Positions 1-35,397 of a DNA stretch of 64,000 nt are shown one piece after another. A model generated the notes under the pieces. That model was not told where the DNA came from. It searched no databases and was given only the letters and a program-made list of their open reading frames with translations. The stretch is from Hoyosella subflava DQS3-9A1 (GTDB lineage: Bacteria; Actinomycetota; Actinomycetes; Mycobacteriales; Mycobacteriaceae), in the NCBI RefSeq assembly GCF_000214175.1, contig NC_015564.1, forward strand, positions 2,356,001-2,420,000, written 5' to 3'. The stretch's first letter is position 1. Each line of letters begins with the position of its first letter. The position numbers and the translations under genes were made by a program.

Positions 1-647
1 GCTAGCTTTTTCGCCTCCCGGCCGACGAATGCAGCGACGCCGCGTTTCGTGGCAGCAGTCGCTTTCTGCAGGCTCCCGCTGTCGTAAGGCGGCTGCGGAT
101 CGTACTCAATTACTAGCTGCGCGGCACGGGCAACGTCGTCCCCCGCGATTCTTCCGACCAGCCATAGGGCAAGGTCGATGCCTGCTGAGACGCCGGCTCC
201 AGTGACGATCTTTCCGGTGTGCACTATCCGCTCGTCGTTAATGGCTTGTGCCCCAAGTCCTTTGAGCACGGACATCTCCGACCAATGCGTAGTCGCGGGC
301 TTCCCATCGAGCAGGCCGGCGGCGGCCAGCACCACCGACCCGGTGCAGACCGACGCGGTCCATTGCGTGGTTTCGTGCACACGCCGCATCCACTCCAGTA
401 ACTGCTGGTTCTTTGCGATGGTGCCACTCGCAGCTCCGGACCCACCGATCAATACGATGTCCGGCGCGGGAGTTTCGTCGAAGGAATGCGTGGCTGCCAT
501 GACAAAGACGCCGCTGTCGGCGATCACGGGCCCAGGCTCGGTCCATACGAAACGCAACTCAGCTCCAGGGATGCAACGTAGCACCTCGTACGGGCCGACG
601 ATGTCAAGCGCGGTCATACCGGGGTACACCACGATCGCGATCTGCAT
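1..647 (-). CDS. DJ-1/PfpI family protein, isonitrile hydratase-like (partial)
   Basis: The gene is cut by the left window edge; its ATG is at 645-647. The visible 215 residues have the DJ-1/PfpI fold: an opening strand with VVYPGMTALDIVGPYEV and a nucleophile-elbow cysteine in SVCTGSVVLAAAGLLDG followed by ATTHW. This arrangement is typical of isonitrile hydratase (InhA-type) proteins, some of which hydrate isonitriles to formamides. The substrate here is inference, because many family members are uncharacterised. It begins 9 bp after the GlxA-type regulator, whose N-terminal half has the same fold. The two are probably co-transcribed with the upstream amine oxidase gene. Confidence 0.88.
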   Translation of the reverse strand, partial: MQIAIVVYPGMTALDIVGPYEVLRCIPGAELRFVWTEPGPVIADSGVFVMAATHSFDETPAPDIVLIGGSGAASGTIAKNQQLLEWMRRVHETTQWTASVCTGSVVLAAAGLLDGKPATTHWSEMSVLKGLGAQAINDERIVHTGKIVTGAGVSAGIDLALWLVGRIAGDDVARAAQLVIEYDPQPPYDSGSLQKATAATKRGVAAFVGREAKKL

Positions 648-656
648 GCTTGCTCC

Positions 657-1652
657 TCACGAAACTTTTGGTTTGGTCTGAAAGTGCTGCCGGTACCGGC
701 CGGGTGTTGTTGCTGCGCGTCGGGCGAATGCCCGGTGCAGGGTCTCCGGGCGCCCGAACCCTACTTGGGTCGCGATCGCGGGAATAAGCAGATCGGTGGT
801 TTCGAGAAGGACTTTCGCCGCTTCGACCCGCAACGATTCGACGAGAACCGCTGGCGTGACCCCAACTTCCTTGCGGAACAAGCGGGCGAAGTTCCGTGGG
901 CTCATGTCTACGCGTGACGCAAGAGTTTCGACGGACAGGTCTTCCGCCAGATGATCGGGCAGCCAGCGCTGCAATTTCACCAGTGCTGGCGTGCGCGCGG
1001 GAGGATTGCGCATGTGCATACTGAACTGCGACTGCCCGCCGGGGCGGCGGAGGAAGACCACGAGCCAGCTCGCCACTTGATGTGCGATCTCAGAACCGCA
1101 GTCGTCCTCGACCAATGCCAGTGCCAGGTCAATGCCAGCGGTGACGCCAGCTGACGTCCACCGGTCGCGGTCGCGAACGTAGATGGCGTCGGCCTCGACA
1201 TCTATGGCTGGATGGTCAGTTTGTAGTTGCCCGCATACGGCCCAGTGTGTGGTCGCCCGATAACCGTCGAGCAGGCCCGCACGGGCGAGGATCGCCGCAC
1301 CTGAGCACACCGAGGTGGTGCGCCTCGTGGTGGCCGAAATAGTCTGAAGGTCTTCAATCGCGGCTGGATGATCGTCGGCGAAGGAATAAACACCGAGACC
1401 TCCGGCCACGAGTAGCGTGTCGATTCCAGACTGCTGCGATGCGTCCGTGAGCGAAGCGTCCACACCGATGCTGATGCCGCTCTCCGTCCGCACTGTCTTG
1501 CCGCTCGGCGACGCGAGCATAACCGTGTAGCCGGGGTTCGAGCCCAGCAACGATGCGGTCCTAAAGACATCCGTTGGGCCTGCGATGTCGAGCAGGTTGC
1601 AGCCGTCGAAGACAACGACAACGACCTCACGGAAATCGCGTGAACACCGCAC
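657..1652 (-). CDS. GlxA family transcriptional regulator (DJ-1/PfpI sensor plus AraC HTH)
   Basis: 331 residues. The N-terminal DJ-1/PfpI-like domain (about 10-180) contains FDGCNLLDIAGPTDVF and the elbow SVCSGAAILARAGLLDG. The C-terminal AraC-type double helix-turn-helix (about 225-325) contains MSPRNFARLFRKEVGVTPA and ATQVGFGRPETLHRAFARR. Family members sense small amines or nitrogen compounds with the amidase-like domain and activate neighbouring catabolic genes; the ligand is not evident here. The annotated start is a GTG with a weak ribosome site, so a slightly later start is possible. It sits between an amine oxidase gene (81 bp upstream) and a DJ-1/PfpI gene (9 bp downstream), all on one strand, which suggests local control of an amine-related operon. 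Confidence 0.9.
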   Translation of the reverse strand: MRCSRDFREVVVVVFDGCNLLDIAGPTDVFRTASLLGSNPGYTVMLASPSGKTVRTESGISIGVDASLTDASQQSGIDTLLVAGGLGVYSFADDHPAAIEDLQTISATTRRTTSVCSGAAILARAGLLDGYRATTHWAVCGQLQTDHPAIDVEADAIYVRDRDRWTSAGVTAGIDLALALVEDDCGSEIAHQVASWLVVFLRRPGGQSQFSMHMRNPPARTPALVKLQRWLPDHLAEDLSVETLASRVDMSPRNFARLFRKEVGVTPAVLVESLRVEAAKVLLETTDLLIPAIATQVGFGRPETLHRAFARRAATTPGRYRQHFQTKPKVS

Positions 1653-1733
1653 TCATTGATCGTTTCCTGAAAGACGGTTGGCGGCAAGGACAAGTAACTG
1701 ACGATTTCAGCCCCAGCAGGAGGCGGGGGGTCA

Positions 1734-3086
1734 TCAAAGCACCGCGAGAATCTCGTCCGCGGTTTGGTAGCCCGAACGGACTGCGCCTTCCATATAGCCG
1801 TTCCATTCGATGGCGTGCTCTGCCCCCGCCCAGTGCAGTCGCCCGACGGGTTTGCGAAGGACCTCCCCGTAGCTGGTCCACACGCCGGGTGCGAAGTGGG
1901 CACCATAGCAGCCGCGCGTGAATTCCTCTGCACTCCAATCTTTCTCCACGTAGTCGGTTGGATCGGCGGCTTCCGGACCGAAGTACCGGACAAAGCTGTC
2001 AAGAACACCGGCACGCCGCTCGTCTATGGGCAGGCGCTGCCAATGGCGAGCTTCGCTTCCTTCGACAAACCCCATCAGGATGCCCACTTCGCCGCCGGGC
2101 GGTGAGACGTCGAATGTCACTTTCACTGGTCCCTGGTCCGAGATCGCTTGCCCGTTCAAGCCTTGCTTGCGCCAGAAAGGTGTCGGATAGACCGCGAAGT
2201 TCTTGATGACGGTCCCCGCCGGGAGTTTCTGCGTGAGCTGGTCCCGCCAGGCGGGAAGCGCTGGTTCGTAGTGCAGGCGACCCGCCAGCGTTGGCGGAAG
2301 TGTGATGAGGACGCGCCGCGCGGAGTGCGTCTCGCCGGATCGTGTCCGGACGGTGACGCCCGTGCCGGCTTGCGAAACGTCGGCGACCTCGGCGCCCAAA
2401 CGGACGTCGAGGCCCGCCGCGAGGTGCTGCGCCACCAGCACCGAGCCTCCGACTACGCGGTCCTTCTGTGCACCCTGGTCGACGGAGATTAGAGTTTCGA
2501 GATCCCTGTTGCTTACGGTGTAGAAGAGCGCATGGAGGAGTGAGATATCGGCCGAGTCAGCTGAGAAGATCGCCTCCGCGGCAAGGCGGAAGTAGGCACG
2601 GCCACTTGGTGTCCGCAGGTTTCGGCGCACCCACGACTCGTAGGTCTGTCCGTCGAGGCTACCCGCCTCCGGGTGCAGCCAAGGTGCGGCGGGGTCGACG
2701 GTGCGCGCAAGGCGGCCGAATCGGATCAGGCCCTGAAGCAGGTCAGCGAGCGCGATCGGGTTGAGTTTTGGAATGGCCCCTTTCTTTGGGGCGAGGTGAG
2801 CCTTCTTGCCGAGAAGATGGAGAAGCAGCTTGCCTTCATCGTTCCAGGTTCGGAAGGTTTCGAGACCGAGTTCTTCCACCAGGGCGTACATTTCGGTGTG
2901 GCCTTCGCCCAGCCACGTGCCACCGAGTTCGATCGGATGCCCTTGAACTACACCACCTTCGGTGCGGCCGCCCACACGGTCTCGCGCTTCTAACACTCGC
3001 ACGGACTTACCCACGTCCACGAGCTTGCGCGCCGCGCTCAGTCCGGAGAGTCCTGCGCCTACAACGATGACGTCGACGTCGTGCAT
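1734..3086 (-). CDS. Flavin-dependent amine oxidase
   Basis: 450 residues, normal for bacterial monoamine-oxidase-like enzymes. The N-terminal FAD-binding Rossmann motif is VVGAGLSGLSAARKL, followed by the ELGGTWLG segment that contacts the flavin. The C-terminal second FAD signature contains RLHWAGAEHAIEWNGYMEGA. Such enzymes oxidise primary or polyamines to aldehydes with release of ammonia and H2O2. The substrate is unknown. It heads a minus-strand transcription unit with the GlxA-type regulator and the DJ-1/PfpI protein, and is divergent from the iron transporter operon. Confidence 0.9.
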   Translation of the reverse strand: MHDVDVIVVGAGLSGLSAARKLVDVGKSVRVLEARDRVGGRTEGGVVQGHPIELGGTWLGEGHTEMYALVEELGLETFRTWNDEGKLLLHLLGKKAHLAPKKGAIPKLNPIALADLLQGLIRFGRLARTVDPAAPWLHPEAGSLDGQTYESWVRRNLRTPSGRAYFRLAAEAIFSADSADISLLHALFYTVSNRDLETLISVDQGAQKDRVVGGSVLVAQHLAAGLDVRLGAEVADVSQAGTGVTVRTRSGETHSARRVLITLPPTLAGRLHYEPALPAWRDQLTQKLPAGTVIKNFAVYPTPFWRKQGLNGQAISDQGPVKVTFDVSPPGGEVGILMGFVEGSEARHWQRLPIDERRAGVLDSFVRYFGPEAADPTDYVEKDWSAEEFTRGCYGAHFAPGVWTSYGEVLRKPVGRLHWAGAEHAIEWNGYMEGAVRSGYQTADEILAVL

Positions 3087-3184
3087 GCGTTCTCCTCATC
3101 AAGTCAGTCGTATGACTGAGTTGCCCCAAGGGTAAGGTCATCCGCCCGAACCCCACCAGAGTCCTTTACGGCTCGCACGCGCGA

Positions 3185-3254
3185 GATTTACTCAAGAAAC
3201 CATCGATCTCCTCGGTTTGTTTCTTACGGGCATTGATGGTTTCTTGAGGAAATC
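3185..3254. repeat. Long imperfect inverted repeat in divergent intergenic region
   Basis: Arms at 3185-3207 and 3232-3254 (23 bp each, 2 mismatches) flank a 24-nt loop. The core arm begins CTCAAGAAACCATC. It lies between the amine oxidase gene and the iron transporter operon, roughly 100 bp upstream of the amine oxidase start. There is no T-tract, so a terminator is unlikely. It could be an operator for a dimeric regulator, an mRNA leader hairpin, or a small repeat element. Confidence 0.6.
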
Positions 3255-3296
3255 TGCAGAAGCGCGCGTGAACGCCGCATGACGCGCTACCGGCAC

Positions 3297-3315
3297 TTAG
3301 GTTAGGCTCACTTCA
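3297..3315 (+). promoter_or_regulatory. DtxR/IdeR iron box
   Basis: The 19-mer TTAGGTTAGGCTCACTTCA matches the DtxR/IdeR consensus TTAGGTTAGGCTAACCTAA at 16 of 19 positions. It lies about 105 bp upstream of the siderophore-binding lipoprotein gene. In actinobacteria the Fe2+-bound regulator occupies such boxes and represses uptake genes when iron is sufficient. The regulator gene is not in the window. Confidence 0.85.
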
Positions 3316-3420
3316 TGCTAAGGTTCTCCCGCTTCCTCGCGCGCACCTTTTGATCGCTGTCTGCGGATCTGCGCTCGGGTGGCGCATTGATCCTGGACGA
3401 AGCAGAAGGCACTGACGATT

Positions 3421-4470
3421 ATGAGCATTTCCGCAGGACGAATTGGCATCTTGGTGCTCGCCGCAGCACTAGCGAGCGCACTGGTGGCATGTGGGCAATC
3501 TGAAGCTGTAGATAGCGGCGCCGCCGCATCAAATGGAGAGGGCACGACGATCTACCCGCTCGTCCTCGATAACTGCGGCAGGAAAGTAACCATCGACGCC
3601 GCACCGCAGCGGGTGGTCTCGCTTGACCAGGGATCGACTGAGATCTTGCTGTCCCTGGGGCTCGCCGAACGGGTGGTGGGCACTGCGTCGTGGACGGATC
3701 CAATCCGTGAGAATCTCGCGGAAGCGAATGCGTCGGTCCCGCGACTCGCAGACAACGCTCCATCCTACGAGGTCGTGCTTGGTGCAGATCCGGATTTCGT
3801 GACGGCGTCGTTCGGCCGGCATTTCGCACAGGGCGGCGTGGCCGATCGTGACCGTTTCGAAGAAACCGGCATGGAAACATACCTCTCTCCCACCGACTGT
3901 GATAACGGCGTGAGCATCAACGGCGGTGGCAAGCGCACCACCCCGCTGACGATGGACGCGCTGTATCAGGAGATCCGCGAGCTCGCGGCCGTGTTCGACG
4001 TCAGCACGCGGGGCGAGGAACTGATCGACGAGTTGAAGAGCCGCGAGACCGCCGCGCTCGCAGGTATCGGGGCAGCGGATGTCTCGCTGGCGTTCTGGTT
4101 CGCCGATACCAAGAGCCCCTATGTGGCCGGTGGCCTCGGTTCGCCGAACCTGCTCGCGACCTACGTCGGTGCCGAGAACGCGTTCTCTGACCTGACGGAC
4201 GACTGGGCGCCCGTCGGCTGGGAGACTGTGGTGGAACGCAACCCCGATGTCCTGGTGCTTGGTGATTTGTTGCGCAACCGCTTCCCCGGAGATCTCCTGG
4301 TAGAAAAGGCAGCGTTCCTCGAATCAGATCCCCTCACAAAGAACCTTGATGCGGTACGCAATGGGCACTACATCGAACTGCACGGCGCGGAAATGAATCC
4401 TTCCATTCGGACCGTTGATGGCCTCGAGAAACTCGCCGCGGGGCTCCGCGACCTGAAGGTGCCGTCTTGA
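3421..4470 (+). CDS. Iron-siderophore ABC transporter substrate-binding lipoprotein
   Basis: 349 residues with a lipoprotein signal peptide ending in lipobox LVAC-G around residue 24, so the mature protein should be anchored to the outer face of the membrane. It has the helical-backbone (class III) periplasmic-binding fold of FecB/FhuD proteins, with the typical early motif RVVSLDQGSTEILLSLGLAE and a C-terminal VVERNPDVLVLGD segment. It captures Fe3+-siderophore complexes. The ATG follows AGAAGG with about 11 nt spacing. It is the first gene of a three-gene operon and overlaps the permease gene by 4 bp. The upstream iron box implies repression by DtxR/IdeR. Confidence 0.92.
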   Translation: MSISAGRIGILVLAAALASALVACGQSEAVDSGAAASNGEGTTIYPLVLDNCGRKVTIDAAPQRVVSLDQGSTEILLSLGLAERVVGTASWTDPIRENLAEANASVPRLADNAPSYEVVLGADPDFVTASFGRHFAQGGVADRDRFEETGMETYLSPTDCDNGVSINGGGKRTTPLTMDALYQEIRELAAVFDVSTRGEELIDELKSRETAALAGIGAADVSLAFWFADTKSPYVAGGLGSPNLLATYVGAENAFSDLTDDWAPVGWETVVERNPDVLVLGDLLRNRFPGDLLVEKAAFLESDPLTKNLDAVRNGHYIELHGAEMNPSIRTVDGLEKLAAGLRDLKVPS

Positions 4471-5534
4471 CCCTTAAACTCAGGCCCGCTGAAACCGGCG
4501 GTCGCGCACCGGTCCAGCGGCCGTGGGTACTCGGTGCCATGATCGCGTGCGCGGGAGTCTGCGTGCTCGTACTGTCGTTCCTCGTCGCGATCACGCTAGG
4601 ACCGGCAGACGTGTCGATGGTCAATGTCCGTGATGTCCTGCTGAATCACGCAGGGCTCGCAGACATCCCGGTGCGGCCGACTAAGAACGCGATCGTGTGG
4701 GAGGAACGTCTCCCCCGCGCGCTAGTGGCCGCTGCATGCGGTGCCGGACTCGGTTTGTGCGGCGTCATCATGCAGTCCCTCCTTCGGAACCCGCTCGCTG
4801 ATCCGTTTATTCTGGGGATCTCATCGGGGGCGTCGACAGGTGCCGTGATCGTTGGCGTGCTTGGTGTCGGAGGGATGGCGCTCGGTTTGTCCGGCGGGGC
4901 ATTCATCGGCTCGCTCATCGCGTTCGGGTTGGTGCTGCTCCTCGCGCGGCTGTCCGGCGGCAGTAACGACCGTGTCATTCTCGCGGGTGTGGCGAGTACT
5001 CAATTGTTTTCGGCTCTCACATCGTTCGTCATTTTCGCGTTCGCCGACTCAGACGAGACCCGCGGCGTGATGTTCTGGCTGCTCGGCTCGCTCGAAGGCG
5101 TTCGATGGAACGACGTGGTGCTGTGCACCGTCATTGTGCTCCTCGGCGCCGCCATATGCTTGCACTACGCATACGTTCTTGACGCCTTCGCCTTCGGTGA
5201 AGATGTCGCTGCGTCCCTTGGTATCTCCGTCACGAAGGTCCGGCTGCTACTTCTCGTCGTGACCGCACTCATCACTGCGACTCTGGTCAGCGTCGCCGGT
5301 GCGATCGGTTTCGTAGGGCTCGTGCTCCCCCACGCAGCTCGGCTTCTGGTGGGCTCCCGGCACAGTCGGCTGATTCCCGCGACCGCTGTCATGGGGGCCG
5401 TGTTTATGGTGTGGGTGGACGCCATCTCCCGGGTGGCCTTCGCTCCCACACCGCTGCCGGTAGGTGTCGGCACCGCCCTAGTTGGTGTTCCCGTGTTCAT
5501 CGTCATTCTGTCTCGGCGTAGGAGGGCCGTATGA
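4467..5534 (+). CDS. FecCD-type iron ABC transporter permease
   Basis: 355 residues, strongly hydrophobic, about ten membrane helices. It carries the FecCD signature region RNPLADPFILGISSGAS and the GAIGFVGLVLPHAARLL loop that contacts the ATPase. Members form the homodimeric channel of siderophore and vitamin B12 importers. The start is a TTG overlapping the upstream stop codon (TTGA), and the gene overlaps the ATPase gene by ATGA, so translation is coupled across the operon. Confidence 0.93.
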   Translation: MTLKLRPAETGGRAPVQRPWVLGAMIACAGVCVLVLSFLVAITLGPADVSMVNVRDVLLNHAGLADIPVRPTKNAIVWEERLPRALVAAACGAGLGLCGVIMQSLLRNPLADPFILGISSGASTGAVIVGVLGVGGMALGLSGGAFIGSLIAFGLVLLLARLSGGSNDRVILAGVASTQLFSALTSFVIFAFADSDETRGVMFWLLGSLEGVRWNDVVLCTVIVLLGAAICLHYAYVLDAFAFGEDVAASLGISVTKVRLLLLVVTALITATLVSVAGAIGFVGLVLPHAARLLVGSRHSRLIPATAVMGAVFMVWVDAISRVAFAPTPLPVGVGTALVGVPVFIVILSRRRRAV

Positions 5535-6316
5535 CATTGCACGCCGAAACCGTCACCTGGAATCGTGGCGGCTCGCTGATCGTCGACGGCGTGACGGTCA
5601 CACCGGCACAGGGCGCGACGGTAGGTCTGCTCGGTCCTAACGGGTCCGGGAAGTCCTCGCTCCTCCGCCTCCTGAATGGAGTCGTTCGCCCGACCACCGG
5701 TGTCGTGACACTCGACGGACACGACCTAACGACGTTGCGGCGCAGAGACATCGCGCGTGCCGTCGCAGTCGTGAGCCAGCACGCGGACACGGAAGTTGAC
5801 ATCGCGGTTCGCGATGTGGTGCGTCTGGGACGAATCCCGCACCGCGGAACGTTTGGTGGTGACCCGGCGACCGACGACGCGGCCGTGAGCGCCGCGCTCG
5901 AGCACACGTGTCTCACGTCGAAGGCAGATCGGTTGTGGCACACGCTGTCCGGTGGTGAGAAGCAGCGGGTCCAGATCGCCCGCGCTCTCGCACAGAATCC
6001 GCGTGAACTGTTGCTGGACGAGCCTACGAACCACCTCGATATCCACCATCAACTGGAGTTACTGGCGCTCGTCGCTCGGCTGCCCGTCACGAGCGTGATC
6101 GCCCTTCACGACCTCAACCTTGCCGCAATGTTCTGCGACGATGTGATCGTGCTAAAGGATGGGCGAGTTGTCGCCGGCGGCAAGCCCGCCGAAGTCCTGA
6201 CGTCCGAGCTAATCGCCGCCGTCTACAACGTGTGCGCCGAGGTTATCGTCGACGACGCGAGAAGACGTCTGTCCATACTGTTCGAGCCAGGCCCCGTTCC
6301 GGTTATCGCGCGTTGA
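5531..6316 (+). CDS. Iron-siderophore ABC transporter ATP-binding protein
   Basis: 261 residues with Walker A GPNGSGKSS (about 36-44), Q-loop VVSQHADTEVDIAV, ABC signature LSGGEKQR, Walker B LLLDEPTNHLDIH and switch histidine ALHDLNLA. It belongs to the FecE/FhuC family that powers ferric-siderophore import. It is the last gene of the iron operon, starting with an ATGA overlap on the permease stop. A region of gene debris follows it. Confidence 0.94.
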   Translation: MTLHAETVTWNRGGSLIVDGVTVTPAQGATVGLLGPNGSGKSSLLRLLNGVVRPTTGVVTLDGHDLTTLRRRDIARAVAVVSQHADTEVDIAVRDVVRLGRIPHRGTFGGDPATDDAAVSAALEHTCLTSKADRLWHTLSGGEKQRVQIARALAQNPRELLLDEPTNHLDIHHQLELLALVARLPVTSVIALHDLNLAAMFCDDVIVLKDGRVVAGGKPAEVLTSELIAAVYNVCAEVIVDDARRRLSILFEPGPVPVIAR

Positions 6317-6327
6317 TGCTCCGGCTA

Positions 6328-6453
6328 CTATGCCTTCAGACCAACAGGCGCAATGCGGCATCTAACTGACGAGGCCATCTGGACCATCGCGATCCCGGCC
6401 GCCCCCACAGTTGCTGCGAGAGTCCGCCGGTTGCCGGTATGAGAAGCGTGCAT
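6328..6453 (-). pseudogene. Remnant of MFS exporter N-terminus (duplicate of the gene at 33732-35318)
   Basis: A 41-codon frame starts at the CAT at 6451-6453. Its first 21 residues, beginning MHASHTGNRRTLAATV, match the N-terminus of the intact MFS protein encoded at 35318 at 19 of 21 positions. After residue 21 the similarity stops and the frame ends at 6328. The upstream flanks also match: 6460-6479 is identical to 35325-35344. With the VOC remnant 180 bp to the right, this is a deleted copy of the locus at 35.3-36.9 kb. The secreted-protein gene present there is missing here. Confidence 0.75.
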
Positions 6454-6633
6454 GCTGAACTCGATTCATCCGACTGGCACAGAATCTAGGGTCGAACGTG
6501 GCGCGGTTACCTACGGTGAAACCGGAGGCGCCAAATTTTTCCGAATATGTGCGAATTCAGGCCGTAAACTGTCCGCTACGGGGCGCAGGATGAGATCAGC
6601 AGTTCATCAACGAGGAAGGTGGTAAGAATAAGA

Positions 6634-6996
6634 ATGAGTGCGCCTGATCGTTACATTCCTGGAGTGCCGTGCTGGGCCGATACGAATCAGCCAGATCGCG
6701 CCGCCGCGGCGCGGTTCTACAGCAAGCTATTCGGCTGGCAATGCGAGAACGTAATGTCGGCCGATGCTGAATCGCAGTACCTCGTCGGCCGTCTCAGCGG
6801 CGGTGACGTTGCCGCGATCACGGGCTTCCCGGACGACGGCTCGCAGAAGCCCGCGCTACAGCAGCGAGGGCGGTCGAGCTCGGCGGCACAATTATCCTCC
6901 CGCCGACCGACGCCCCCCTGGGTACGGATGTCTGTGGTGCAGGACCCCGCTGGAGCGGTGTTCGGCGCGAACCTACTCGTCCCCGAAAATTCCTGA
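6634..6996 (+). pseudogene. Internally deleted two-domain VOC protein (CFP30B-like) with compensating frameshifts
   Basis: The first 60 or so residues closely follow the intact paralogue at 36052-36903 (SxPDRYIPGVPCW at the N-terminus, FGWQCE, GRLxGGDVAAIT). The last 25 also match (WVRMSVVQDPAGAVFGANL). About 160 internal residues are gone. Between the two conserved parts the DNA encodes AVELGGTIILPPTDAP in a different frame, so the deletion changed the frame and an extra C in the C-run near 6917 restored it. The result is an open but chimeric 120-residue frame lacking most of both VOC modules, so metal-site formation is unlikely. The ATG at 6634 is the homologous start; GAGGAAGG precedes it. 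It overlaps the GNAT gene by 1 bp (TGATG), so it may persist as a translated leader. Confidence 0.75.
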
Positions 6997-7574
6997 TGTC
7001 CAGAGTCTTTGACGTTCGTCCAGCTGTTGTCTTCGATGATGTGCGGGCGCTTGTTGGGCCGAAGCGTCCCGATGCGAATGTGTGTTGGTGCCTGAGTTAC
7101 CGAGTGCCCTCGAAGCTCAACAACGAGCTACGCGGCCCGGCGCGCGGGGAGTATGCCGAGGGGCTCGTGCGCAATGGGCCTCCCCCGGGCGTCCTCGCGT
7201 ATGACGGCGACACCCCCGTGGGCTGGGCAGCGGTCGCTCCGCGCGCCGACACTGCCTTCGCCCGCAATCGGAAAATTCCGCATGTGGATGAATTGCCAGT
7301 GTGGTCGCTTTGGTGCATCCGCGTCCGGCCGGGACACCGTGGACAGGGCGTTTCACACGCGCTGATTGCCGGTGCAGCAGATTTCGCCCGCCAGAGCGGC
7401 GCCCCGGCGATCGAAGCTTATCCACTGGATAATCAAGGCGAAAAGGTAGACCTGACGATGGCGTATCCCGGACTCCGAAAAAACTTCGAGGCCGCGGGAT
7501 TCACCTATGTTGCCGACACGGACTCTGTCCTGAGCGGCTTCTCCCGCGTACTGATGCGGCTCAGCCTAAGCTGA
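6996..7574 (+). CDS. GNAT family N-acetyltransferase
   Basis: 192 residues. The acetyl-CoA pyrophosphate-binding loop is visible as RVRPGHRGQGVSHALI (motif A, Q/RxxGxG/A), preceded by the WSLWCIRV strand and followed by AIEAYPLDN. The acceptor substrate cannot be read from sequence. The start ATG overlaps the stop of the VOC remnant (TGATG). Its 3' end overlaps the convergent SDR gene by 9 bp. Confidence 0.85.
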   Translation: MSRVFDVRPAVVFDDVRALVGPKRPDANVCWCLSYRVPSKLNNELRGPARGEYAEGLVRNGPPPGVLAYDGDTPVGWAAVAPRADTAFARNRKIPHVDELPVWSLWCIRVRPGHRGQGVSHALIAGAADFARQSGAPAIEAYPLDNQGEKVDLTMAYPGLRKNFEAAGFTYVADTDSVLSGFSRVLMRLSLS

Positions 7575-8225
7575 CACCGCCACTGAATTGCCAACGTAGT
7601 CAGCGCTTTCCGCAGCCTCGGCGATTGCGGAGGCGACGGTCGCTCGTGGTACTGACCATGACGCCACCTCGCCGGAGGAGGAAACGTGGGGAGTTCCGCT
7701 CGATGGGTTGTCGTTCAGGTGGACGGGCTGAACGACAACCCAATCGAGCCCACTCGATCGCACCATCGCCTCCTGCTTCGCATGGTCCGCGATCTGCGGC
7801 TTGATGAGCATGGCAAAGAAGAGCCGATCGAGCCAGCGCAGCTTTCCCGCCGTATCTCCAACCCCAAATGAGCTCTGGACAATGAGTTTCGAAACGCCAT
7901 GAGCGCGCATCGACTCGATCAGGTTGCGTGTCCCGATTGAACGCACTTCCAGCACAGAGTGTTTCGGGCCGAGTAAACGCACCCTCATCGGGTTCTCGCT
8001 AATCCCCAAGGTAACGACAACGGCGTCCTGACCCTTCACAGCGTCACGCACAAACTCTGAATCAGTGACGTCGCCATCGACCGCCCGAAGCGAACCATTG
8101 GTGCCCGAGGTGGTGAGGTCGCTAGCGTGCCGAGCAAGTGCAGTGACCGAATGGCCCCGTGCCAGCAACTCAGCCACGACAGCACGTCCTGAGCCACCGG
8201 TGGCACCAGCTACCAAAATGTTCAT
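7566..8225 (-). CDS. NAD(P)-binding SDR family oxidoreductase (NmrA-like, atypical)
   Basis: 219 residues from the chosen ATG at 8223-8225, which has a strong ribosome site (GGAGGA about 8 nt upstream); an upstream in-frame ATG at 8285 would add 20 basic residues and lacks support. The dinucleotide-binding motif is LVAGATGGSGRAVVAELL, with TALARHASDL for the adenine ribose and DGDVTD downstream. The canonical SDR YxxxK is not obvious, as in the atypical a5/NmrA-like group, where members act as quinone or flavin reductases or redox sensors. It is divergent from an AraC-type regulator gene that probably controls it. Confidence 0.85.
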   Translation of the reverse strand: MNILVAGATGGSGRAVVAELLARGHSVTALARHASDLTTSGTNGSLRAVDGDVTDSEFVRDAVKGQDAVVVTLGISENPMRVRLLGPKHSVLEVRSIGTRNLIESMRAHGVSKLIVQSSFGVGDTAGKLRWLDRLFFAMLIKPQIADHAKQEAMVRSSGLDWVVVQPVHLNDNPSSGTPHVSSSGEVASWSVPRATVASAIAEAAESADYVGNSVAVSA

Positions 8226-8294
8226 GATGATCTTCCTCCATAGTCTTTGCCGGCGTTGTCGTCGACTGTTGTTCGATACGTCCACGCTATCCAG

Positions 8295-8334
8295 GGATCT
8301 ATAGAGGATCTATCGCGAGTAGTCTGGAATCTAT
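8295..8334 (+). promoter_or_regulatory. Direct repeats GGATCTAT between AraC and SDR genes
   Basis: GGATCTAT occurs at 8295-8302 and 8306-8313, 11 bp apart (one helical turn). A degenerate third copy, GGAATCTAT, is at 8326-8334 overlapping the AraC-type start codon. Direct repeats at helical spacing are the usual operator form for AraC-family activators. Assignment to the adjacent regulator is inference. Confidence 0.5.
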
Positions 8335-9295
8335 GTCGATTCGTCCAGCAACCGTAGTGCCCTGGACGCCTCAGGATGCGCTCGCCGAGGCGCTCTACCT
8401 GCTGCGGATGCGAGGCGTGTTCTATTCGCACACGGAAGCCACAGCGCCATGGGCCTTAGAGATGCCGCCCTTTGCTGGCTGCCTGAGTTTTCACGTAGTC
8501 ACCGAAGGTGGATGCTGGCTGGAGATCGAAGAAGCCACCGAATATCTCCGCGCTGGGGATCTTGCACTTGTCCCTCACGGACGGGGACATCTCCTGCGCA
8601 ATCAGCCGGACGTCCCCGTCACCGGGCGGGTGGACGAGCTTCCCCAACAAATGGTGAGCGATCACTATTCGATTCTGCGCTGCGGTGGCGGCGGTGCGCG
8701 CACCACGCTGATCTGCGGCGTCGTCAGTTTCCACCAGCCCACCGTCAACCGGCTACTGGCGGTTCTCCCACCCGTGATCCACATCGATGCGGCACACGAG
8801 CGAGGATCCCGCATCCGTGACGTGCTTGATTTGATGGCATCGGAGCTCCGGCACCTGCGCCCCGGCGGCGAAGCCGTCACCACCAGGCTCGCTGACATCC
8901 TCCTCATCGAAGCGATTCGCTGCTGGCTCGCAACCGACACCGGCAGCCACCCCGGATGGCTCGGCGCGCTGAATGATCCACAACTTGGCCCCGTAATCGC
9001 CGCGATTCACCGCTCGCCGGGCGCACCGTGGACAGTCGATTCGCTCGCACGAACATCCGCGATGTCACGTTCGGCCTTCGCAGCACGGTTCACCGAGATC
9101 GTGGGTACTCCGCCGATGCAGTATGTGACGCGCACTCGCATGGAGGCCGCCGAAGCCCTTTTCCAAGAGGACGGCGCAACGGTGGCAACAGTTGCCGCGA
9201 AGCTCGGGTACCAATCCGAGGCGTCGTTCAGCCGGGCTTTCACCAAGACGATGGGACGCTCGCCGGGTTCGGTGCGGCGGCTTGGATCGTCTTAG
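8333..9295 (+). CDS. AraC family transcriptional regulator with cupin sensor domain
   Basis: 320 residues. The N-terminal AraC_binding_2/cupin-like region (about 20-180) contains GCLSFHVVTEGGCWLEI and LRAGDLALVPHGRGHLL. The C-terminal double HTH (about 215-318) contains SLARTSAMSRSAFAARF and AKLGYQSEASFSRAFTK. Members of this group usually activate a divergent oxidoreductase gene in response to small electrophiles or substrates. Here the divergent partner is the NAD(P)-binding SDR gene at 7566-8225. Confidence 0.9.
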   Translation: MSIRPATVVPWTPQDALAEALYLLRMRGVFYSHTEATAPWALEMPPFAGCLSFHVVTEGGCWLEIEEATEYLRAGDLALVPHGRGHLLRNQPDVPVTGRVDELPQQMVSDHYSILRCGGGGARTTLICGVVSFHQPTVNRLLAVLPPVIHIDAAHERGSRIRDVLDLMASELRHLRPGGEAVTTRLADILLIEAIRCWLATDTGSHPGWLGALNDPQLGPVIAAIHRSPGAPWTVDSLARTSAMSRSAFAARFTEIVGTPPMQYVTRTRMEAAEALFQEDGATVATVAAKLGYQSEASFSRAFTKTMGRSPGSVRRLGSS

Positions 9296-9387
9296 GCGGT
9301 CCGCCTCGCAGATCGAGAGCCAGTTCGCAGCAGATGCCGCCAGTTCAGCAACGTGGACCGCGTGTCAGGCGGCTGCGGTGCCGAGCG

Positions 9388-9828
9388 TCACGATCGGGAT
9401 GTTCGACTCACGCCACCGTTGCGTTCGTAGTAGCGGGCCATCAGTTCCCAGTACGCCATCAGCAGCCCCATCTCCAGTGCTGTCGCTGCTGCGGCCGGTA
9501 CTGCGCGGCGCTGATGGGCGGCGACCATCGCGACCAGCAAGGCGGCGGTCGCGGCCACGTTGACCGCCATCGCGGTGTCCATCGGCCGCTTGGCGAGCCA
9601 CTGCTCCTCACCAAGCGCCGCCCGGGTTGACCATGCCCGGTCGTGCGCGGGTTTGCTGAACACCACCGGGTTGACTGCCATCCATAGCCCGACCAGCGCA
9701 GCGTCGCGCTGGCTGCGTCGCCACACCGGGACAAGCATCAGCGGTGTGCTCGCCCACCTCGTCCACATGCTCCACGGATTGCTGTGCCGCGCGAACACCA
9801 CCCGCATGACCTTCCGCCAGCCCTCCAT
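9388..9828 (-). CDS. Small membrane protein, DUF6653-like
   Basis: 146 residues beginning MEGWRKVMRVVFARHSNPWS. It has a short hydrophobic hairpin near 30-50 and a longer one near 90-135 (AVNVAATAALLVAMVAAH, then LEMGLLMAYWELMARYYER). The NPWSMWTRW opening and the central NPVVFSKPAHDRAWSTRAALGE resemble the DUF6653 family as I recall it. Function is unknown. AAGGAG lies 6 nt before the ATG. It stands alone between a convergent AraC gene and the next minus-strand gene. Confidence 0.7.
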   Translation of the reverse strand: MEGWRKVMRVVFARHSNPWSMWTRWASTPLMLVPVWRRSQRDAALVGLWMAVNPVVFSKPAHDRAWSTRAALGEEQWLAKRPMDTAMAVNVAATAALLVAMVAAHQRRAVPAAAATALEMGLLMAYWELMARYYERNGGVSRTSRS

Positions 9829-9926
9829 CGACGGCTCCTTCCGGCTGCTGGTCGCTTAACTCTGGATTCTGCTCCTTGTTACGGCGCGAAGGCCATACTT
9901 GTTCTAGGCAGCTCAAGCTGAGGGGC

Positions 9927-11048
9927 TTAGGACCCTGCGCGCGGGCTAATGGCGGAAATAGCCACAATCCCGCCCGGGTGCATTCGTTCAAGCGGGGGCC
10001 CCGGCTCCGGTTGCTCGGACGAGTGGAGTAACCGCTGCAGGTGAGCGATTGACGAAGCGTTAAGTTCTCCGCGCGTCACCGACAGCATCCAATCGAAAGC
10101 GCCTGCAGACCATACGTAATGGCTTTCCTCATGTGCCCCTGCATAGTCGTCACGCATGGGCGGGAGCGTCCAGGGCGAGTTCGAACGGGGCCTTCGCCGG
10201 ACCGTCAAGCAATCGCTGTAGCAAGAAAGGCCCGCGTTGACCTCTCCGGTTTTCTCATCGACGTGAGTAAATTCGAGGGAAAAGTTCTTGAAGACGGGGA
10301 GATTGACATCGTCTTGAAGGACGTTGCTGCGGAACCAATCGTTAGCCTCGTGCGCGAGCCGACGGCCGTCCCCAGCTTTTCGTTCATGGAAAGCCATCTC
10401 TTCTTCGTCCGTTACCGCCTTACCCTGCCATGTGAACACCGCATCAGGGAGTTCCTCATCGATGTGGAAGCTCTCGAACTCGGCGCCGGATGCACCACTG
10501 TGGTCGTATTGCGCCACCACAGCTCGCGTTTGAACATCGAGCCGAATCGTGCGCACGGAGTCGGGCTCCCCCAGCATCCGTGACCGGGGTGAGGGACGAG
10601 GCGGAGCGAGTTTGAGCTCCCAGCATGGTCTGCCCAGGAACTCAATTTCTTCGACCGGTCCCACCGGTCTGATCCACCGCTGTGTTGCCCACCGATCTTC
10701 CTCGCTCGACAGGGCGAGTTCACGGCCAGGGCCCAGGAACTGCACCCGGTCAGGAGCCGTCACTCGCGGGTCCGAGCGATCGTTGCGAAAGTGCCACGCA
10801 GAGTGACCGTCCGATCGAAACACCGGCGCGCCAGCGGCCGTGTCGATTCGGACTTTGGCTCCCGACCTCGTAACGCGAAGATGTTCGTCGGGGGTCAAAA
10901 GGGAGAGCACGAGCGGTTGTTCGCCGAAATAGCTTCCGTAGTAAAAGTGCATTCCTTCTTCGATGTCGCGCCAGGTCCGTATCGTGCCACTGACGGGTAC
11001 ACGGGGTCCGAGGCATAGCGAAACCAGCACTTCGAGATGATCCGGCAC
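9927..11048 (-). CDS. Hypothetical protein, 373 residues
   Basis: Not recognised. The GTG start has a good ribosome site (GGGGGAGA, about 5 nt spacing). No signal peptide or membrane helix is evident. The N-terminal two thirds look like extended beta structure (FYYGSYFGEQPLVLSLLT, RTIRLDVQTRAVVAQYD), reminiscent of the half-barrels used by outer-surface lipoprotein carriers. That resemblance is only an impression. The C-terminal part is more charged. Codon use looks like that of its neighbours and the reading frame is intact, so it is probably expressed. Confidence 0.7.
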   Translation of the reverse strand: MPDHLEVLVSLCLGPRVPVSGTIRTWRDIEEGMHFYYGSYFGEQPLVLSLLTPDEHLRVTRSGAKVRIDTAAGAPVFRSDGHSAWHFRNDRSDPRVTAPDRVQFLGPGRELALSSEEDRWATQRWIRPVGPVEEIEFLGRPCWELKLAPPRPSPRSRMLGEPDSVRTIRLDVQTRAVVAQYDHSGASGAEFESFHIDEELPDAVFTWQGKAVTDEEEMAFHERKAGDGRRLAHEANDWFRSNVLQDDVNLPVFKNFSLEFTHVDEKTGEVNAGLSCYSDCLTVRRRPRSNSPWTLPPMRDDYAGAHEESHYVWSAGAFDWMLSVTRGELNASSIAHLQRLLHSSEQPEPGPPLERMHPGGIVAISAISPRAGS

Positions 11049-11082
11049 AACTATCTCCCCCGGGTCGGTTTTCGCGTACCCC

Positions 11083-11235
11083 TCAATCTAGGCAAAATAC
11101 ATTCCCTTCCGGGTCGGCGCAGACGATGTGTCCCGCTTGAAGCGGCGGGGCAGGCTCGTATCGTGCGATCCGGGTCGACCCGAGTTCAGTAAGTCGAGCG
11201 CACCGAAGTTGTCGCTCGTAGGTGGTCAGGTGAAG
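11083..11235 (-). pseudogene. Orphan C-terminal fragment of a VOC (glyoxalase-like) protein
   Basis: Reading the minus strand from an in-frame stop at 11236-11238 to the stop at 11083-11085 gives about 50 codons with no good start. They include RLTELGSTRIARYEP and HIVCADPEGNVFCLD, the standard end of Glyoxalase_6-type VOC domains. The N-terminal half of the domain is absent. I read this as a truncated, non-functional remnant. Confidence 0.6.
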
Positions 11236-11266
11236 TTAAGGTTCCGACACCACTTTGCGGGCGCTT

Positions 11267-12130
11267 CTACCCGAACACGATGTTCGCGAGCAAATCGACC
11301 TGATCGCCTGTGGACACCGTTGGCGCGAAGATCAACTCGTTCGCGCCCGCCGCCTCGTACGCCTGCATCGCTCCTTGAATCGCTTCGGCACTGCGCAGCA
11401 CGCTTCCCGCGATCATCTGGGCGACGTCATCACCCATAGGTTTGTAATAGTCGAGCACGCTTTCCCGAGATTGTTGCTCAGTGTCGCCAAGACCGAAGTA
11501 AACGAGCGCCGTGATGTGCGGTTCGCCGTCGCGCCCGGCTGCCTGCCATGCCGTTCGCACCTTCGTGGCGAATTCACTGACCGCATCCGGTGGCAGCCCG
11601 CCCGCAGTCCAGCCAGCCCCATGGTCGACGATGCGCCTGATCGCTGCCTGCGTCGTTCCGCCGATCATGACTGGAATCGGTGACTGCACAGGGGGCGGGG
11701 ACGCTGGGCGTGCCGCCAGGTCGAGCGCTTCGCCGCTCCACGAGCGGTACAAGGCCGGCAACATTTCGTCGAACGCCGCACCGCGGCCGTCAAAGTCTCG
11801 GCCGGTGAGCAAGAAGTCAGCTTCGCGCCAGCCCACACCCAATCCGAGGGTGAGCCTGCCGTTCGTCAATTGGTCGACCGTCGCAGCCTGCTTAGCTAGC
11901 TCGGCAGCGCTTCGCGGCGGGGCGATCAGTACGTTTGTGAAGAAGCGGATTCGCTCGGTCACCGCGCCCGCCGCAGCGAAGACTGTGAGCTCCTCATAAC
12001 TGGGATACGACACCGCCCCGATGGAACCGAGTGAGCTGAACCCAGCCTGGTCTGCGCGCCGCGCCCATTCGATCAGGCCGCGGCCAGTTGCGCCTGGCAC
12101 TGCGTTGGGAAGTCCGATTCCGACCTGCAT
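11267..12130 (-). CDS. LLM class (luciferase-like) F420-dependent oxidoreductase
   Basis: 287 residues from the ATG at 12128-12130 (start MQVGIGLPNAVPGATG, with GAAGG upstream); a longer frame upstream overlaps the divergent gene and is not used. Family features are LIEWARRADQAGFSSLG, the TNVLIAPPRSAAELAKQAATV barrel strand-helix, LGLGVGWREADF and PIPVMIGGTTQAAIRR. Actinobacterial members use F420 or FMN to reduce or oxidise small organics; the substrate is not evident. It is divergent from another F420-type reductase, with only 36 bp between the starts. Confidence 0.9.
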   Translation of the reverse strand: MQVGIGLPNAVPGATGRGLIEWARRADQAGFSSLGSIGAVSYPSYEELTVFAAAGAVTERIRFFTNVLIAPPRSAAELAKQAATVDQLTNGRLTLGLGVGWREADFLLTGRDFDGRGAAFDEMLPALYRSWSGEALDLAARPASPPPVQSPIPVMIGGTTQAAIRRIVDHGAGWTAGGLPPDAVSEFATKVRTAWQAAGRDGEPHITALVYFGLGDTEQQSRESVLDYYKPMGDDVAQMIAGSVLRSAEAIQGAMQAYEAAGANELIFAPTVSTGDQVDLLANIVFG

Positions 12131-12166
12131 GCTGCACCTTCTCTCTGAGTCGAGCACACTGGAAAC

Positions 12167-12610
12167 ATGCCTACCACCACCGGTTCGGGTTTGCCTCCCG
12201 ATTCCCCGCGTCAGCGATTTGCTGCCGCGAAAGTGGCCAGGCTTGCGACGGTTCGTCCAGATGGGACGCCCCACGTCGTACCCATTACCTTCGCGGTGGC
12301 AGATGAAGATGTGGTCACCGCGATCGACTCGAAACCCAAACGGACGAACAACCTTCAGCGCCTCCGAAATCTGCGCACCAACCCGGCGGTGAGCCTCATC
12401 GTCGACCATTACGACGACGATTGGAATCGACTGTGGTGGGTACGGGTTGACGGCCTTGGGCGGATCGCTGAGGACGGCCCAGAACGGGCGCGCGCCCTCA
12501 AGGCACTGGTGGAGAAGTATTCGCAGTACAGCGCGGATCCACCTGCCGGTCCCGCGATCATCATCGAGCCAGCCGGGTGGACAGCGTGGTCGGCACACTC
12601 AGCGCCCTGA
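12167..12610 (+). CDS. PPOX-class F420-dependent oxidoreductase (TIGR03668-like)
   Basis: 147 residues of split-barrel flavin/deazaflavin-binding fold. It has the family opening RQRFAAAKVARLATVRPDGTP, then HVVPITFAV, KRTNNLQRLRNLRTNPAVSL and WWVRVDGLGRI. Such proteins bind F420 and reduce quinones, biliverdin or xenobiotics. The start lies 36 bp from the divergent LLM oxidoreductase, so the two may share a promoter region. Two F420 enzymes side by side imply a host that makes F420. Confidence 0.9.
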   Translation: MPTTTGSGLPPDSPRQRFAAAKVARLATVRPDGTPHVVPITFAVADEDVVTAIDSKPKRTNNLQRLRNLRTNPAVSLIVDHYDDDWNRLWWVRVDGLGRIAEDGPERARALKALVEKYSQYSADPPAGPAIIIEPAGWTAWSAHSAP

Positions 12611-12680
12611 TTAACCAATGCGTCGCCGTCGGCCGAGCCGTACGAGCGTCCGGGGACACCGGCTGTGGCACCATCGAGCT

Positions 12681-13670
12681 ATGCGCCCTACTGCTTCCAG
12701 GCTGGATGAACTGCGCCGCGCTGCGCTGACCGGCGGCCGGCGCGCCGCCGGCCGGTATGCCCGACGCCTCGGTTCGCGCGGCACGATCACGATGGCTGAG
12801 GTCCGTGCGATGCGCGTCATGCTCGAGCGTTATATGACCCGGCCTGATTTGCGTGCCGACCCGGCCACTAGGGCCGAGCAAGTCCGCGTGCGCTTCAAGG
12901 ACGGTCAGGTGCGTGGCGAGTGGGTCGAGCGCCCCGGCGCTGGCCCCCGCGATGGTGCGGTCCTGTTATACATCCATGGCGGCGGATTCGTGGTCGGATC
13001 GCCCCTGTCGCACCGCGGACTGACCAGTGAACTGTCAGCGCGTACAAAGCGGCCGGTCTTCTCCGTGGATTACCGCAGGGCCCCGGAGCACCCCTACCCA
13101 GCTGCTGTCGACGATGTGTTGCGCGCGTACGCATGGCTTATCGATTCCGGACTCAGTGCCCAGCAAATTGTTGTGTGCGGAGACTCCGCCGGTGGGCATC
13201 TGGCGTTAGGTCTGCCGCCACGAGCCGATCGGGCGGGTTTGCCAGTCCCCGCGGGTGTCGTCGCCCTATCCCCCGTGGTCGACCCCACGATGGCCATGAG
13301 CCGCCGCTGGCTCACCAGCAACCACCCGAAAGCGCCTGCGTATTTCACCGACGCTGGGCGGGCGCTGATGGAACCGCACTGGCGTGGCGTCGCGCCATCC
13401 GACCCAGAGCTATTACTGACGAACGACGACCTGACGGTCATGCCGCCGGTGCTTGTGCAAGCTAGCGACGCCGAGTTGCTGACCGGAGACGCCGAGCACT
13501 ACATCGAAAACCTGAACGCGGCCGGCGGGAACGGAAAGCTAAGCCTGTACCACCGCAGGATCCACGTTTTCCAGGTGGCGCACAGGGTATCGCGGACCGC
13601 ATCCCAAGCGCTCGATGAAATCGCCCGTTTTGTCGACGAGGTCATCGCACCGCACCAGGCAGGCGCTTAA
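12681..13670 (+). CDS. Alpha/beta hydrolase, hormone-sensitive-lipase (HSL) family esterase
   Basis: 329 residues from the ATG at 12681. The oxyanion-hole motif is HGGGF, the nucleophile elbow GDSAGG, and there is a C-terminal IHVFQ histidine region. The acid residue is probably in the SDAELLTGDAEHY segment. The stretch after GDSAGG (HLALGLPPRADRAGLPVPAG) is a little shorter than in typical relatives, perhaps a small deletion. It hydrolyses short acyl esters by family analogy. It is followed 8 bp later by a metallo-hydrolase gene, so the two are likely co-transcribed. Confidence 0.87.
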   Translation: MRPTASRLDELRRAALTGGRRAAGRYARRLGSRGTITMAEVRAMRVMLERYMTRPDLRADPATRAEQVRVRFKDGQVRGEWVERPGAGPRDGAVLLYIHGGGFVVGSPLSHRGLTSELSARTKRPVFSVDYRRAPEHPYPAAVDDVLRAYAWLIDSGLSAQQIVVCGDSAGGHLALGLPPRADRAGLPVPAGVVALSPVVDPTMAMSRRWLTSNHPKAPAYFTDAGRALMEPHWRGVAPSDPELLLTNDDLTVMPPVLVQASDAELLTGDAEHYIENLNAAGGNGKLSLYHRRIHVFQVAHRVSRTASQALDEIARFVDEVIAPHQAGA

Positions 13671-13678
13671 CACCTCCG

Positions 13679-14560
13679 ATGTTTAGTGAACAGTCATACG
13701 GCCGCGTCTCAGTCTTGATGGCCGCGAACGGCGGAGTCGTCCCCTACGGAAACACCGTGGTGGTGCGTGGATCTGAGCGAACGGTTGTGATCGACCCGTC
13801 ACTCGCGCTCCACAAGGATCCGGTCGGCGCGGACCTCGTACTCATTAGTCACGGCCACGAGGACCACCTCGCGGGATTACGGCACTTCGATGCGCCGACT
13901 TTCGCGCATCACCTCGACGTGCCGTCCGTCGCATCCCTCGACACGATGCTCGGGCAGTACGGTCTTGGCTCTGCCGAGCGAGCTCAGGTCGAACACGTGA
14001 TGCTCAACGAGTATGGGATTCCTCCTACCCGTGATGGCGTCACCGGAATGGACGACGGCCAGGTATTCGACCTCGGTGACTGCACAGCGACCGTCATTCA
14101 CCTGCCAGGTCACACTCCAGGCCACTGTGGCGTTCTGGTCGAGCCCGATGGGTTCCTTTACGTCGCTGACATCGATCTCACTTCATTCGGCCCGATGTAC
14201 GGTGATCTCGGCAGCAGTGTCGACGATTTCCTGAATTCCATCGACCGAGTGGCAGCCATCGAAGCGCGGTGGTATGGGACGTTCCACCACAAGGGCGTGA
14301 TCGAGGGTAGCGGCGAGTTCCGCGAACGCCTGGGGATGTACCGCGACAAACTGCTGAGCCGGGAGGATCGGCTACTCGATTACCTGGTGGAGCCCCGAAC
14401 ACTGGATGCGATCGTGGCCCACCGTCTGGTGTATCGGCCACATGTCTCCGCGCCGTATGTTGACGCGGTCGAGCGCCGTACCGCGGAGCTACACCTCGAA
14501 CGGCTCGTCTCATTGGGCGCCGTGGTTACCTCTGAGAATGGATCGTTCCGGCGGGTGTAG
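13679..14560 (+). CDS. MBL-fold metallo-hydrolase
   Basis: 293 residues. The dinuclear metal motif is HGHEDHLAG (about residues 59-67), with a second ligand histidine in HLPGHTPGHCG and a ligand Asp in VADIDL. The C-terminal region (about 215-290, LVYRPHVSAPYVDAVERRTAELHL) resembles the helical tail of glyoxalase II-like and lactonase-like members. The substrate is unknown. It is second in a unit with the HSL esterase and ends before a strong hairpin terminator. Confidence 0.87.
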   Translation: MFSEQSYGRVSVLMAANGGVVPYGNTVVVRGSERTVVIDPSLALHKDPVGADLVLISHGHEDHLAGLRHFDAPTFAHHLDVPSVASLDTMLGQYGLGSAERAQVEHVMLNEYGIPPTRDGVTGMDDGQVFDLGDCTATVIHLPGHTPGHCGVLVEPDGFLYVADIDLTSFGPMYGDLGSSVDDFLNSIDRVAAIEARWYGTFHHKGVIEGSGEFRERLGMYRDKLLSREDRLLDYLVEPRTLDAIVAHRLVYRPHVSAPYVDAVERRTAELHLERLVSLGAVVTSENGSFRRV

Positions 14561-14582
14561 CGACAGATCACTACGGCTCGTG

Positions 14583-14628
14583 ATACGCGTCAGCCCGGCA
14601 GCATATGTGCTGCCGGGCTGACGCGTAT
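14583..14628. terminator. Bidirectional hairpin terminator
   Basis: A perfect 21-bp GC-rich stem (14583-14603 with 14608-14628) closes a 4-nt loop. It sits between the convergent metallo-hydrolase and pntB genes, 22 bp after one stop and 15 bp after the other. No T-tract follows, as is common for actinobacterial intrinsic terminators. Confidence 0.85.
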
Positions 14629-14642
14629 GGTTACCGCCGAGA

Positions 14643-16085: not shown

Positions 16086-16090
16086 GCGAA

Positions 16091-33036: not shown

Positions 33037-33047
33037 GACTTTCCTCC

Positions 33048-33063
33048 CATACGGTACCGTATG
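33048..33063. promoter_or_regulatory. Perfect 16-bp palindromic TetR operator
   Basis: CATACGGTACCGTATG is a perfect palindrome in the 24-bp gap between the divergent TetR and SRPBCC-DUF2867 starts. Its last three bases are the first in-frame ATG of the TetR gene and it abuts the ribosome site of the other gene. Occupation would block both genes. It is the natural operator of the adjacent TetR protein. Confidence 0.8.
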
Positions 33064-33630
33064 TTCATGTCATCGCGACAGCGTCTTTCCGCATCTGACT
33101 GGTCGACCGCCGCACTCGAAGCGCTCGCCGAAGGTGGGCTCGCCGCCGTCGCAGTCGAGCCGATCGCAGCCCGTCTCGGCGCGACAAAAGGGAGTTTCTA
33201 CTGGCACTTTTCGAGTCGTGAGGCTCTGGTCACGGCTGCGCTGGAGCTGTGGGAGCGCGTCGACACAGAGGAAGTCATCGCCGAGATCGAGACTGAACCA
33301 CCCGGACTCCCCCGGCTTCGTGCTCTGATTGTGGGGGCGGTCGAAGGCCGCACAGGCGAAGCGGCGCGAACGGAGCTAGCACTCCAAGCCACCGCGCGGC
33401 ACCCCATCGTCGCCCCTGTGCTTGCGCGCGTCACGCGGCGGCGTCTCAGCTACTTGGCGGAACAGTTCGCCGAACTGGGCTTCCCGACAGGTGAAGCCGC
33501 GCGGCGGGCCCAGCTCGCATATGCGAGCTATCTCGGAATAGCCCAGCTGGCCAATTCAACACCAGACGAGGCGGATCTCTCCCCTGCTTACCTCGACACG
33601 ATGCTCAGAACACTGACAGCATCGCCGTGA
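33061..33630 (+). CDS. TetR family transcriptional regulator
   Basis: 189 residues. The N-terminal HTH is clear: WSTAALEALAEGGLAAVAVE, then IAARLGATKGSFYWHFSSRE. The C-terminal ligand domain is helical (ALQATARHPIVAPVLARVTR). The first ATG (33061) lies inside the palindromic operator and has no ribosome site, so translation may be leaderless or begin at the ATG at 33067. It is divergent from the SRPBCC-DUF2867 gene and convergent with the MFS exporter. Confidence 0.9.
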   Translation: MFMSSRQRLSASDWSTAALEALAEGGLAAVAVEPIAARLGATKGSFYWHFSSREALVTAALELWERVDTEEVIAEIETEPPGLPRLRALIVGAVEGRTGEAARTELALQATARHPIVAPVLARVTRRRLSYLAEQFAELGFPTGEAARRAQLAYASYLGIAQLANSTPDEADLSPAYLDTMLRTLTASP

Positions 33631-33697
33631 TCAGCGCCCCGTCCCCCAATCCATCGGTGGGTGTCGCGTAAATCTGCCAAAACTGGGCGATTTTGAT

Positions 33698-33714: not shown

Positions 33715-33731
33715 TCTGGTGGCGGGCTGGC

Positions 33732-35318: not shown

Positions 35319-35397
35319 GCTGAGCTCGATTCATCCGACTGGCATGGAAACTATGGTGTCACCTTGCACGGCTCCGCATGGCAGAACACAGACTTGG

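Follow-up and report, generated by a model that had tools for sequence, protein, structure and literature searches.

A xenologous MFS-VOC-GNAT locus with broken genes beside an iron operon of Hoyosella subflava

Gene remnants at 6.4 kb and their counterparts at 35 kb

The window analysed here is a stretch of 64,000 nucleotides (64 kb), positions 2356001-2420000 of its contig, from the three-contig genome of H. subflava DQS3-9A1, formerly Amycolicicoccus subflavus, whose size is 4,738,809 + 17,897 + 106,784 = 4,863,490 bases (PMC3743902). At 6388-6993 an MFS gene and a VOC gene survive as broken remnants in collinear order, and their homology to the genes at 33735-35318 and 36052-36900 was confirmed by blastn of 5500-7600 against 33000-38000 and by a search of the window against itself (Table 1). 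The comparison with congeners covers two genomes, G001 and the nearer relative G002, and uses an identity profile in 500-bp steps together with three-way identities.

Table 1. Features of the two loci and the blastn blocks that connect them (window coordinates)
Feature	Position	Strand	Remarks
Siderophore-type ABC importer (binding protein, permease, ATPase)	3421-6316	+	native left flank of island
3' remnant of Imm5_like-family gene	6336-6375	-	last ~14 codons (GLVRQLDAALRLLV stop); match 6336-6371
Introgressed island, G001-like donor DNA	6388-12600		~6.2 kb
MFS exporter remnant	6388-6453	-	start codon and first ~22 codons; aligned to G001 34474-34539
Intergenic region of divergent mfs/voc	6454-6633		gene-free; gapped alignment with G001 unbroken, ~89%
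VOC-family pseudogene	6634-6996	+	5' part (codons 1-73) and 3' end (last ~27 codons, stop) on either side of a ~490-nt deletion (alignment, blastn, translation)
GNAT acetyltransferase, intact	6996-7574	+	PF00583; G001 type; overlaps VOC stop (TGATG)
NAD(P)-binding (PF13460) gene and AraC-type regulator	7566-9295		in island; native G002 alleles 76-80% identical
Intact MFS exporter	33735-35318	-	PF07690
Secreted-type protein (SEC) between MFS and VOC	35398-35940	-	VOC-adjoining SEC homologues in G002, G022 and Lolliginicoccus suaedae
Intact two-domain VOC gene	36052-36903	+	PF00903, 87.8 bits, two stretches
Probable GNAT deletion scar	36904-36964		69 bp here vs ~609 bp with GNAT in G002
Block 1	6392-6492 vs 35257-35357		81% over 101 bp, E 7e-23; mfs start and bases in front
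Block 2	6634-6833 vs 36052-36251		73.5% over 200 bp; voc 5' part
Block 3	6843-6992 vs 36751-36900		73% over 150 bp, E 4e-20; voc 3' part

The three blocks are collinear and plus/plus and, self-overlapping inverted repeats excepted, they are the strongest internal DNA matches of the window. Blocks 1 and 2 clearly stand out in the window-against-window search, where block 2 reaches an E value of 7e-28 (2e-30 in the local search). A first-pass annotation of this DNA had reported a decayed MFS/VOC homologue next to an iron operon, with the order and orientation of the 35-kb locus; the homologue exists as described, and a siderophore-type ABC operon does adjoin it. Its coordinates and residues are also right: the two MFS N-termini agree at 19 of 21 residues (MHASHTGNRRTLAATVGAAGI vs MDASHTGERRTLAATVGAAGI), and 6460-6479 is identical to 35325-35344.

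The MFS remnant keeps 22 of 525 codons, and its frame reads MHASHTGNRRTLAATVGAAGIA, then MVQMASS...stop, that is, 22 native residues followed by 19 foreign ones and a stop. In the VOC remnant the start codon is kept, but the deletion, with its junction near 6849-6851, fuses codon ~73 to codon ~237 out of frame; one nucleotide inserted into a C run then brings the last ~27 codons and the original stop back into frame. The net loss is ~163 codons, the middle is scrambled relative to the intact orthologue, and a Pfam search of the remnant recognised no domain. Judged against an intact orthologue, each remnant has a disrupted frame or has lost the larger part of its domain, and both are therefore pseudogenes.

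The reading frame of the VOC remnant nevertheless remains open to the VOC stop, over 121-125 codons, since the 490-nt deletion and the 1-nt insertion jointly preserve it. Moreover, dN/dS between the remnant and G001 is 0.16 over the first 71 VOC codons, compared with 0.07-0.19 in pairs of intact VOC genes. Both observations would suit a working short protein in place of a pseudogene, a reading that we regard as very unlikely: the ancestral frame is lost for ~20 middle residues, both VOC domains are largely missing and no Pfam match is left, the low dN/dS may date from before the breakage, and the open frame may serve only the translation of the overlapping GNAT gene, having perhaps been held open since GNAT is translated behind it. 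Given that a dN/dS of 0.16 is a signature of purifying selection, the breakage looks recent relative to the divergence of the remnant from G001, and the locus does not provide the dated record of genome reduction that had been seen in it. A scan of 6300-7650 for promoters and terminators found nothing.

The intact GNAT gene belongs to the same locus as the two remnants and is the only copy in the whole genome. Its protein is 94% identical in amino acids to that of G001 and 85% to that of G002; for its DNA the values are 91.3% and 77.9%, respectively. To the left, 6336-6371 matches the 3' end of the G001 ORF at 43265-43828 (83% over 36 nt, 39.2 bits), while the best scores were 31.9 bits among 200 random window pieces and 27.4 bits among 200 shuffles. 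H. subflava has a 60%-identical paralogue at another place in its genome, but the scrap matches the G001 gene instead; it lies between the iron operon and the mfs remnant, the position expected from the order in G001. The ABC importer is 90.6% identical to G002 and 82.6% to G001; its best NCBIfam matches are the EitA/EitC and F420-0 families, all under cut-off.

At the 35-kb locus, the MFS protein reaches the MFS_1 family (PF07690) but scores below the NCBIfam cut-off for DHA2-type MFS exporters (TIGR00711, 215.8 bits vs 230.2). The intact VOC gene encodes a member of the VOC (glyoxalase/bleomycin resistance) superfamily, with the Pfam Glyoxalase domain found twice above cut-off; a Pfam search of the secreted-type protein returned no domain. 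The gene order here is MFS-SEC-VOC without GNAT, compared with mfs'-voc'-GNAT at the 6.4-kb locus. In G002 the order is GNAT-VOC-SEC-MFS, with GNAT between VOC and the homologue of the window gene at 36965. SEC also stands beside VOC in Lolliginicoccus suaedae (L069) and G022, and in Hoyosella rhizosphaerae (L057) VOC is followed by GNAT. G001 has GNAT-VOC-MFS, where VOC and MFS are directly adjacent and divergent; this intact cluster has the same context as the 6.4-kb locus, adjoining the homologue of the 7566 gene, and the G001 homologue of SEC is found ~8 kb further on. The loss of a middle gene, which had been proposed for the 6.4-kb locus, finds no place in this comparison: in G001 the two genes are intact and the region between them aligns end to end with the window. 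Given that the G001-type locus has no secreted gene at this place, none was lost from the 6.4-kb interval.

Affinities to the two congeners

Overall, the remnant is 88-91% identical to the intact MFS-VOC-GNAT locus of G001. Window 6388-6851, including the whole intergenic region, is 89% identical to G001 34539-34082; for 6837-9314 and the G001 stretch next to it the value is 91.5%. The first-pass annotation had explained the resemblance of the two window loci by duplication of one ancestral segment inside the genome, after which one copy decayed and its middle gene disappeared. Alike gene order and orientation and significant DNA similarity are what such a duplication would leave, but the retained VOC codons are 87.6% identical to G001, 73.4% to G002 and only 72.0% to the intact window copy. 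A tree that makes the two window copies sisters is 44.6 log-likelihood units worse and is rejected by the AU test (p-AU 7.7e-07). The VOC tree itself draws the fork of remnant and G001 unsupported, while identities and path lengths join them; the grouping adopted here rests on the identities together with the AU test. In addition, the surrounding 6 kb shows equal affinity to G001, and the orthologous G001 interval lacks the middle gene. The window copies are not each other's closest relatives, and by tree and identities the two loci differ in origin, an outcome that the first-pass annotation had itself named as refuting it. Hence the tree and the identity profile rule out an internal segmental duplication, to which we give practically no credence; the first-pass annotation, partly supported, had rightly seen a real feature and explained it wrongly, most of its interpretation being in error.

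The affinity to G001 is confined to an island with sharp limits. In 500-bp steps the island is 85-97% identical to G001, compared with a genome background of 72-77%, and it is 76-80% identical to G002 or absent there. Its borders lie between 6320 and 6388 on the left and between 12600 and 12664 on the right; it counts against the island reading that the left border is obscured by deletion and that the 36-nt Imm5_like remnant is short. No repeats suggesting a mobile element were found at the island border. On the left, 1-3221 is 96% and 3218-6319 is 91% identical to G002 (for 15-1700, 96.0% to G002 and 78.7% to G001), and the right flank is ~95% (94.5%) identical to G002 from 12664 on. An affinity of the entire left part of the window to G001 was considered and rejected, since 1-6319 has a match of 91-96% in G002, at a place farther along that contig. 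Outside the island the window is 90-97% identical to G002 and 72-89% to G001, except for a stretch at 33-42 kb with 78-83% to G002. Two other stretches of the genome, taken as background, are 95% and 85% identical to G002 and 72-77% to G001.

Within 6388-9292 the three-way identities are 90.6-92.6% between window and G001, 75.8-79.5% between window and G002, and 74.2-79.0% between G001 and G002. Given that the identity of G001 to G002 inside the island is ordinary (74-79%) and that it is the window that switches partner, the lineage of the window is the recipient. With an identity far above background, breakpoints and the recipient as the odd one of three, the 6.4-kb locus is a xenolog imported by recombination. 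G001 is the nearest to the donor of the two congeners compared, at a divergence of 8-9%; since this exceeds the ~5% between H. subflava and G002, the DNA probably came from an unsampled relative of G001 and not from G001 itself.

An old duplication before the radiation of the genus, inherited vertically, would have left one copy each in G001 and G002, with H. subflava losing its second. Such a history would explain why the window unites the gene neighbourhoods of both congeners. However, vertical descent predicts that the island is 72-83% identical to G001, where 85-97% is observed, and that the genes at 7566-9295 are ~95% identical to G002, where 76-80% is observed; it would also need rate changes limited to 6.2 kb with sharp borders. 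The local jump in identity thus disfavours ancient duplication with differential loss, and we hold it to be very unlikely.

Three genes at 9388-12598 have 86-97% DNA identity to G001 and are absent from G002 but for a 77% paralogue of the first; they came in with the island. Beyond its right border, at 12664-17617, G001 is 83-89% identical to both H. subflava and G002, compared with 72-77% elsewhere, which reflects either strong conservation or an older exchange. Within that stretch, a 46-bp near-perfect inverted repeat (14583-14628, 95.7% self-complementary) lies in the gap between two genes. At 33.7-42.2 kb, identity to G002 is only 78-83% (93-97% outside), G002 still being the nearer congener; this is a second mosaic stretch, with a history unlike that of the 6.4-12.6 kb island. 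Given that 33-42 kb is unusually far from G002, the 35-kb locus was not acquired by simple vertical descent either, a point that weighs against the history proposed below.

Missing DNA and a proposed history

Relative to G001, the window lacks everything from MFS codons 23-525 through to the iron operon (G001 34540-55079, ~20.5 kb), and the 36-nt piece at 6336-6371 is the sole survivor of this interval. The interval includes a block of ~10 kb (G001 44766-55034) with a TetR regulator, a pair of ABC exporters, an Opp/Nik-type importer and an MFS protein. Its counterpart in G002, at 1473522-1483787 and on that side of the 7566 homologue which faces the operon, shares 80% identity with it. The block is beside the siderophore-type operon in both congeners and absent from the whole H. 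subflava genome; its site in the window is 6316-6388, where 19 bp at the left border match neither parent.

We consider it highly probable that the island was imported by homologous recombination and that redundant copies of the cluster were then lost from both sites. A resident cluster of MFS, secreted protein and VOC, probably followed by GNAT as in G002, would already have been present at 33.7-36.9 kb when recombination brought in the segment from 6388 to ~12.6 kb from a relative of G001. This import would have replaced the native alleles at 7566-9295 and added an MFS-VOC-GNAT cluster. Since the genome already carried a cluster 27 kb away, the imported one was redundant, which is the presumed reason for the losses. 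Subsequent deletions would have cost the imported cluster most of its MFS gene, the genes on the far side of it, and the middle of its VOC gene. With the incoming GNAT kept and the resident GNAT lost, each function would be single-copy again and split over two sites, a reciprocal loss. Against this stands that Lolliginicoccus, too, lacks GNAT at the corresponding place, so that the 36-kb locus may have been without the gene for longer than is assumed here.

What the comparisons show directly is the homology, the limits of the island, the order of genes, the remnants themselves and the lack of the missing genes; the direction and order of these events we infer, and the deletion beside the iron operon may have been part of the import. 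In such a one-step variant, homology near 12.6 kb and illegitimate joining at the iron operon would have replaced the transporter block, the order of events being the sole difference from the main explanation. A block present in both G001 and G002 is gone from the entire genome exactly at the left border, where the 19 bp of neither parent would be accounted for, but the gap before the MFS remnant (X-to-MFS) and the VOC deletion would still need deletions of their own; within the main explanation we view this variant as possible, though on the doubtful side. It is likewise a tentative suggestion that the outcome is a functional re-partition, with the acetyltransferase supplied by the imported site, the exporter, secreted protein and VOC by the resident one, the VOC frame left open for GNAT, and the 10-kb block removed in the same event.

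Comparison with known kinds of gene turnover

Horizontal transfer in DQS3-9A1 was reported in the genome paper to be unusually low (PMC3743902). Exchange between congeners of equal GC content (62% in both) could escape methods aimed at distant donors. The locus also corrects a tempting reading: two similar loci, one of them decayed, look like duplication and decay, while here their origins differ.

The locus resembles three known kinds of change. Xenologous replacement of genes or alleles between congeneric bacteria likewise has sharp identity breakpoints, replaced flanking alleles and extra genes carried along; there is no basic difference, save that the import chanced to duplicate a cluster present 27 kb away. 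Deletion pseudogenes in redundant, newly acquired genes share the truncation, the frameshift, the residual start codons and the intact neighbour, although here the loss is split between loci, with GNAT kept at one and MFS-SEC-VOC at the other. A literature search for similar reciprocal losses returned nothing specific. Reciprocal loss of duplicated genes also ends with a single copy per function at different places, but the duplicates here would come from import and not from genomic duplication, and the GNAT loss at 36.9 kb is deduced from G002 only. Taken together, the locus is a case of ordinary bacterial gene turnover with an unusually clear anatomy, a small example that lets import, redundancy and loss be followed base by base.
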